Below are positions 11,226-12,683 of a DNA stretch of 64,000 nucleotides, in pieces. The notes under the pieces were generated by a model. That model was not told where the DNA came from and made no database searches. It worked only from the letters and a program-made list of their open reading frames with translations. The position numbers and the translations under genes are program-made. This DNA comes from a bacterium. Its GTDB lineage: Bacteria; Elusimicrobiota; Elusimicrobia; Elusimicrobiales; UBA9959. Where the stretch lies: positions 43,954-107,953 of the forward strand of contig JAJZPF010000005.1 in the NCBI GenBank assembly GCA_021811315.1, in the 5' to 3' direction. Numbering within the stretch: position 1 is the first letter of the stretch; each line of letters begins with the position of its first letter.

Positions 11226-12370
11226 AGGCCGCATATGATCCGCGCCGACTTTTGCGCGCCGCGGAACCAGGAGGGTTTTACGCGTTTCGAGATCCTGACC
11301 GGCTTCCCCAGCCGAACCCTTACCGCGGCAGCGATCTTCTCCGGGGTAAGGTCCGCCGGCAGGAGCAGAGCCGCGCCGGCCAGGTCCCTCATCAGCCAGG
11401 CGCGGGCCAGCTGGTCGGAATGCTCGCGCATTTTTGAGCCGCAGTAGGGGGCCAGCACCATTTTTTTCCGCAAAGCCAGCATTTCGTAAACGGAGCCGCC
11501 CGCCGTAGAAAGGCAAACGGCGGCCCCGGACATGAGGTCCTGCAGGCCGGCCGAGCTCCCTATTACCTCGGCCTTTCCTCCGCCGGAAGCCGCCAGCCGC
11601 CGAAAATAGGCCAGCCGCCGGGGCGGCGTGGCCGGCCCCGCGACAAGCCTGAAAGGGACGTCGGAAATGGAAGCCGCCCCGATAGCGGCCTCAAAAAAAA
11701 GGTCGGAAGTGGAACCGCCGCCGCGCGTGACCAGCACGAAATCGTTTGTTTTAACCCGCTTAACTACGGGCTTGCCGGGGTAAAGGTAGCCGGTAAAGAC
11801 GATCTTGCGGCGCAGTTCCCGGAACACTGAAAGAAAGGCGGGCGCGGTTATGCGCCTCTCCAGGCTTACGGCTTTTGCCATGTATGCGAGGTCCGCGCCT
11901 TCAGGGCTGTGGACCAGGAGCTTATCGTAGCGGGCGCAGACCCCGAGCAGCTCTTCAAGGCCGCGCTCCGGGGCCGTAAAATAGGGCATAGGGACGCTTG
12001 AAATCTTCTTCGCGCCGCAGGCCGAAGCCGCCTCGAGGAGAGGGAGCGCTTCCGGAAGGCACTCGGCCCTGCCGAAAGGAAAGAACTCGGTCACCAGCGC
12101 CGAAGGCCGGAACCGCCGCAGCGTAAGGGCGAGGCGGCGGCCCGAAGCCGCGGAGGGCGCCGCCGGGAGCCGCACTACCCGCCCGTATTTGCTGAAAAGG
12201 TTATACGGATAAATATACGGGCCCCGCAGAAAGATCAAACTGCGGCTGCCGCGGGATCCTTTGATCTCCGCCAGCAGCCGCAGCAAGTGTACCGCGTGAC
12301 CGATATCCCCGGAGGGACTATGGAGGTAAAAAACAAGTCTTTCCCGCGCCGCTGATTCAATAGGAACCAT
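11222..12370 (-). CDS. Glycosyltransferase (GT28/MurG-like predicted)
   Basis: Two-domain layout with C-terminal GSSAGLQDLMSGAAVCLSTAGGSVYEMLALRKKMVLAPYCG...REHSDQLARA; start overlaps the repeat peptide stop. Confidence 0.65.
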   Translation of the reverse strand: MVPIESAARERLVFYLHSPSGDIGHAVHLLRLLAEIKGSRGSRSLIFLRGPYIYPYNLFSKYGRVVRLPAAPSAASGRRLALTLRRFRPSALVTEFFPFGRAECLPEALPLLEAASACGAKKISSVPMPYFTAPERGLEELLGVCARYDKLLVHSPEGADLAYMAKAVSLERRITAPAFLSVFRELRRKIVFTGYLYPGKPVVKRVKTNDFVLVTRGGGSTSDLFFEAAIGAASISDVPFRLVAGPATPPRRLAYFRRLAASGGGKAEVIGSSAGLQDLMSGAAVCLSTAGGSVYEMLALRKKMVLAPYCGSKMREHSDQLARAWLMRDLAGAALLLPADLTPEKIAAAVRVRLGKPVRISKRVKPSWFRGAQKSARIICGL

Positions 12371-12683
12371 GGCTGCCGTGGCTGCCGTGGGAACCGTGGC
12401 TGCCGTGGGAACCGTGGCTGCCGTGAGAACCGTGGCTGCCGTGGGAGGCGTGCGAACCGTGGCTGCCGTGCGAACCGTGGCTGCCGTGGCTCTGGTGGCT
12501 TACGTGGGAGCTGCTGGTGAAGTAATTAGAGTGAACCTGCGCCGCGGCCTGCTCGACCATTACCGTACCGAGTATGCCGAGGGCCAGGCCGGTCTTCACG
12601 ATATCCGAGTCCAGCATCTTGCCTTCCTCGCTGCTGAGGAACATGCGGATGTTCTTTTTAAGTTTCGAGGTTTTCTTTTTCAT
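12357..12683 (-). CDS. His-Xaa-Ser repeat peptide (HxsA-like putative RiPP precursor)
   Basis: 108 aa: MKKKTSKLKKNIRMFLSSEEGKMLDSDIVKTGLALGILGTVMVEQAAAQVHSNYFTSSS followed by HVS HQS (HGS)4 HAS (HGS)9 Y; same strand as and downstream of an HxsB-like gene. Confidence 0.85.
   Translation of the reverse strand: MKKKTSKLKKNIRMFLSSEEGKMLDSDIVKTGLALGILGTVMVEQAAAQVHSNYFTSSSHVSHQSHGSHGSHGSHGSHASHGSHGSHGSHGSHGSHGSHGSHGSHGSY
12363..12506 (-). repeat. Tandem 9-bp coding repeat encoding H-x-S triplets
   Basis: Repeated (g/a)ctgccgtg.gaaccgtg units; 16 consecutive HxS triplets in translation. Confidence 0.9.

Follow-up and report, generated by a model that had tools for sequence, protein, structure and literature searches.

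His-Xaa-Ser (Hxs) systems are radical S-adenosylmethionine (SAM) peptide systems built from a precursor peptide (HxsA, HxsA2, HxsA3 or HxsA4) and the proteins HxsB, HxsC and HxsD, and we know of no account of how their peptides are processed and exported or what function they serve. A24 peptidases (PilD, CpaA/TadV and FlaK) have catalytic aspartates at the end of transmembrane helix 1 (TM1) and at the start of TM4; in their known substrates, a hydrophobic helix adjoins the cut and the residue at +5 is Glu. We analyzed a stretch of 64,000 nucleotides (nt) from contig JAJZPF010000005.1 (hereafter "the window", meaning this whole stretch), which comes from a 2.67 Mb genome that is 63% complete. 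The loci closest to that of the window were from Elusimicrobiota metagenome-assembled genomes (MAGs). On its minus strand, the window encodes an HxsA4 precursor (12357–12683) and an A24-like membrane protein (30089–31240); the plus-strand readings of both intervals gave unrelated frames and were rejected. Because gene order and co-occurrence in two lineages, Elusimicrobiota and Omnitrophota, link the A24-like gene to HxsA4, a role for the protease in processing or exporting the peptide is the likeliest reading.

Linkage of the A24-like gene to HxsA4

The 108-amino-acid product of 12357–12683 belongs to the HxsA4 precursors of His-Xaa-Ser radical SAM peptide systems and adds one more member to an established family rather than being something new in kind. 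It scored 91.2 bits against NF038313 (cutoff 55), and two HxsB maturases encoded nearby (14036–15442 and 34298–35761) exceeded the TIGR03978 cutoff. One copy of HxsA4 was found in the window's own genome. Residues 60–108 (12360–12506) form a region of His-Xaa-Ser repeats, mostly HGS, with a 9-nt period and with matches to NF038313 and Collagen-like families, and this repeat peptide is probably chemically modified and exported. HxsA4 proteins of four relatives' loci, among others, showed one of two kinds of ending, GSY, GSW or GQW on the one hand and (A/S)RGGWC on the other, which points to two types of C-terminus.

The protein encoded at 30089–31240 carries RDMATRKITN (containing D23) and WPAGDAKFF (containing D96), in which a preliminary description of this DNA had seen a resemblance to A24 aspartate motifs. 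The resemblance held: both motifs were invariant in an alignment of 47 relatives, and D23, N31, G95, D96 and K98 were invariant in a 16-sequence alignment spanning the two lineages, nine of whose sequences came from Omnitrophota or distant members, at identities down to 17%. The Omnitrophota members were 17–24% identical to the window protein. Chance composition was rejected as the source of the motifs, given their invariance over such divergent sequences. PF01478 was matched at E ≤ 0.01 by 16 of the 47 aligned homologues and ranked first among Pfam families in all 10 Omnitrophota and distant Elusimicrobiota members tested, three of them above the gathering score; several locus copies from the same genus also exceeded the cutoff of 26.5 bits. 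A sequence search of the PDB gave no match. Structure models placed the candidate catalytic residues D23 and D96 at the end of a predicted TM1 and the start of a predicted TM4, respectively. Taken from sequence and predicted helices, 30089–31240 very probably encodes an A24-type (prepilin-peptidase-like) membrane aspartyl protease. In six genomes, the A24-like frames reached about 520–690 amino acids, and a large insertion separated the N-terminal part bearing the Asp motifs from the C-terminal domain.

Gene order was largely conserved in the A24-family loci that were fetched (HxsB2 - (HxsD) - radical SAM - radical SAM - A24 - radical SAM), and in 54 of the 61 locus copies, which include a few duplicates, a radical SAM gene lay directly upstream of the A24 gene. 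When 201 Elusimicrobiota genomes were searched independently with HxsA4 and A24 profiles, HxsA4 was present in 29 of the 30 genomes with the A24 gene, as against 7 of the 171 genomes without it, where several of the matches were weak. The Fisher p value for this co-occurrence, without phylogenetic correction, was approximately 3e-27 per genome and 5e-10 per genus. Six Omnitrophota genomes were found through HxsA4 alone, with a match over the leader, and all six carried an A24 gene on the same contig at a distance of about 2–30 kb. The co-occurrence of the peptidase with HGS-repeat peptides, which the preliminary description had named as a check, was thus borne out in both lineages. Two further Omnitrophota genomes have both genes on one contig; the A24 gene was the route by which they were found, so they do not count as independent. 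One genome (G279) with a weak HxsA4 match, over the repeat positions and not the leader, had no A24 gene. In one relative, HxsA4 and the A24 gene were separated by about 20 consecutive radical SAM-like open reading frames (ORFs).

The A24-like gene represents an additional enzyme, because an ordinary PilD was encoded by a separate gene in 182 of the 201 Elusimicrobiota genomes; its identification as the general PilD, which is separate and nearly universal, was rejected. As a canonical comparison set, we used eight plasmid Hxs loci from Alpha-, Beta- and Gammaproteobacteria, Cyanobacteria and Bacteroidota. An A24 gene was seen in none of the eight, and the six precursors (HxsA or HxsA2) readable from them all began with plain Sec-type signals and lacked the FLxSEEG prefix found in HxsA4. 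A plasmid search with the prefixed HxsA4 leader gave no match. The A24 protease is almost certainly dedicated to HxsA4 systems.

The HxsA4 prefix and signal-like segment

Residues 1–21 of the precursor (12621–12683), MKKKTSKLKKNIRMFLSSEEG, form a candidate leader with a possible cut after the Gly. A leader of the FLxxExG type had been proposed here, and it is real and on the minus strand: the FLxSEEG block is genuine, since five positions, numbered from the possible cut, were conserved at 91–99% in 118 homologous leaders (F-7 96%, L-6 97%, E-3 99%, E-2 91%, and G-1 92% with Ala in 8%). The acidic residues at +4 and +6 that had been counted among the leader features were not family-wide; +4 was Lys in 57% (Asp 19%, Glu 8%), and +6 was Asp in 50% and Asn in 19%.

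In the window protein, the prefix is followed by a Sec-signal-like segment (residues 22–48; 12540–12620) that consists of KMLDSDIVK, GLALGILGTVMV and EQAAA, with an AxA site at its end. The same pattern recurred across the 118 homologues, in which the Gly is followed by K-I-x-K-K-D-I-V-K (net charge of about +2), about 14 uncharged residues and usually AxA. The uncharged run began at +10 in 101 of the 118 leaders, with a median length of 14, and an AxA-like site was present in 94. By these pattern counts, HxsA4 has the layout of a Sec signal, comprising an n-region, 10–15 hydrophobic residues and AxA. In uncut HxsA4, residue 31 is where the first hydrophobic 8-mer begins; after a cut at the Gly it would begin at residue 9, within the range of 4–11 in canonical HxsA, and hypothetical removal of the prefix would leave an n-region of about nine residues, as in canonical HxsA. 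Searches for pilin families gave neither Flp_Fap nor N_methyl among the best 25 of 35 matched families for 59 HxsA4 proteins. Flp_Fap was absent from the window's own, 63% complete genome, where TadA, TadB and TadC were not searched for, and gave one sub-cutoff match only in 40 relatives. Given the charged stretch after the Gly, the short hydrophobic run, the AxA site, and the lack of a pilin profile match and of Flp_Fap in the genome, the precursor looks like a prefix set before an ordinary Sec signal.

A candidate processing route and its alternatives

It is fairly probable that HxsA4 or its export is the target of the system-specific A24 protease, and we lean slightly towards HxsA4 itself being the substrate. 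In the route that we propose, the basic FLxSEEG prefix would serve as the leader while HxsB and the HxsC-like enzymes modify the HGS repeats. The A24 enzyme would then cut at or near SEEG/K (the slash marking the cut) on the cytoplasmic side, removing the prefix after radical SAM maturation. The new N-terminus, with K-I-x-K-K-D-I-V-K, a hydrophobic run of 12–14 residues and AxA, would act as an ordinary Sec signal, and the modified HxsA4 peptide would be exported and cut by signal peptidase I. Both the order in which these steps run and the kind of modification made are what we infer, and the placement of the cut at SEEG/K is tentative. The complete proposal, that an A24-family protease was taken over as the leader peptidase dedicated to a radical SAM-modified peptide, and that prefix removal exposes the Sec signal and only matured peptide is exported, is plausible but far from secure.

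Several observations weigh against this route. The window protein matched neither PF01478 (E ≤ 1) nor an NCBIfam A24 family, so the profile match expected of it from the preliminary description was found in its relatives and not in the protein itself. A Foldseek search with two models (pLDDT, the predicted local distance difference test, of 78.5 and 83) returned no significant solved structure, with FlaK only at E = 3.8, and a comparison of profiles against a narrow PilD alignment fell short of significance; the same comparison aligned D96, and in one case D23, with PilD aspartates. On the substrate side, +5 was Glu in only 8% of the 118 leaders and +1 was Lys or Arg in 85%, unlike known A24 substrates, and two genomes, G146 and G124 (the latter on a short contig), encode HxsA4 with an intact FLxSEEGK but no A24-like gene. 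The ordinary PilD of G146 might substitute for the A24 enzyme. The prefix could also do nothing more than dock the maturases: FLxSEEGK would then serve only for recognition by the radical SAM maturases or HxsD, HxsA4 would leave by Sec and be cut at AxA by signal peptidase I, and the A24 enzyme would have another substrate, such as signal-peptide remnants, an accessory membrane protein (for example, those starting at 12762 and 33058) or another exported protein of the cluster. The frequent AxA-like site, the two genomes that keep the prefix alone and the ill-fitting residues after the Gly all favor this explanation. We nevertheless regard it as rather unlikely, because, of the components, it is HxsA4 whose presence follows that of the A24 gene in both lineages, the 12762 and 33058 proteins were not detected in the Omnitrophota loci, and the prefix and the A24 gene are jointly absent from the canonical systems examined.

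HxsA4 might instead be a pilin-like subunit, cut at G/K and held in the membrane or polymerized via its hydrophobic helix. It shares F-7, L-6, E-3 and G-1 with real Flp (type IVb) prepilin leaders, such as RFLRDESG/ATAIEYGL, and an A24 protease is linked to it; to this extent, the Flp-like layout described earlier stands. Beyond the possible cut, the likeness ends: Flp prepilins run through A-T-A-I-E-Y into a long helix, whereas HxsA4 is charged from +1 to +9 (net charge +2.0 vs. -1.0 in three Flp pilins), lacks Glu at +5, has a hydrophobic run of only 14 residues, and carries AxA and HGS repeats. With the pilin family searches also negative as above, a pilin-like subunit is very unlikely. The earlier suggestion that the peptide is processed and exported, or anchored like a pilin, is accordingly retained for processing or export and left unsupported for pilin-like assembly or anchoring. 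An A24-like membrane scaffold for the radical SAM cluster, repurposed or without catalytic activity, is an equally unlikely identity for the protein encoded at 30089–31240. Its distance from PilD, its extra helices and C-terminal domain, and the lack of a significant structural match would suit such a role, but neither catalytic Asp motif varies even among highly divergent members, unlike in a dead enzyme.

Surrounding genes and comparison with known systems

All the Hxs-related genes of the window lie on the minus strand, where two HxsB maturases scored above the NCBIfam cutoff, several HxsC- or HxsC4-like radical SAM proteins scored below theirs and an HxsD-like protein matched weakly. The A24 gene is preceded directly by a radical SAM gene (31237–32133), which overlaps it by 4 bp (ATGA) and keeps this pair order across the phylum, and by an HxsC4-like gene (32133–33050; NF038332 147.9 bits, below the cutoff of 500). 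It is followed directly by a second HxsC4-like gene (29027–30082; 139.7 bits for the same family), whose adjacency is conserved, then by a radical SAM gene with a CxxxCxxC motif in its translation (27818–29011) and an HxsC-like gene (26982–27827; TIGR03977 68.6 bits, below 267.9), both kept in the A24 neighborhood. Accessory proteins with an N-terminal hydrophobic segment are encoded at 12762–13895 and 33058–33927; they are paralogues, and the former has no Pfam or NCBIfam match and has relatives that adjoin HxsD or HxsA4 in other loci. The HxsD-like gene (33975–34310, start approximate; TIGR03976 17.6 bits, below 50) adjoins HxsB in relatives. The first HxsB copy (14036–15442, start approximate) scored 430.5 bits and the second (34298–35761) 480.2 bits against TIGR03978 (cutoff 370). 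A NifH-like ORF overlaps a NifD-like ORF at 19185–23010, and like pairs occur inside Hxs/radical SAM clusters of four relatives' loci. The protein encoded at 36269–37000, with a TTYYPAPYG motif near its N-terminus, is repeatedly found upstream of HxsB in relatives.

HxsA4, HxsB and A24 are known families; for their stable combination in two lineages, we found no description in the literature searched, which covers part of the published record. The linked A24 protease offers a step in Hxs peptide processing that can be tested. If the proposed route is true, A24 substrates would extend beyond pilins and archaellins, and a way of coupling peptide modification to export would be suggested. The A24 protease family may have been recruited for modified peptides in place of pili in two groups of uncultured bacteria.

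Compared with A24 peptidases, the window protein has the D...I-x-N and G-D-x-K motifs with both aspartates, D23 at the TM1 end and D96 at the TM4 start, and the C-terminal PFA.W..G is similar to PilD's IPFGPF motif. The A24-like proteins differ in being longer (about 290–390 amino acids, with some frames up to about 690) and in having extra helices, the window copy falls below the Pfam cutoff, and their genes are linked to radical SAM genes, whereas PilD is encoded separately. Compared with Hxs systems, the window has HxsA4 and two HxsB proteins above curated cutoffs, together with HxsC-like and HxsD-like proteins. It differs in its precursor, which has an FLxSEEG prefix that the examined HxsA and HxsA2 lack, and in having numerous further radical SAM genes besides an A24 protease dedicated to the system.
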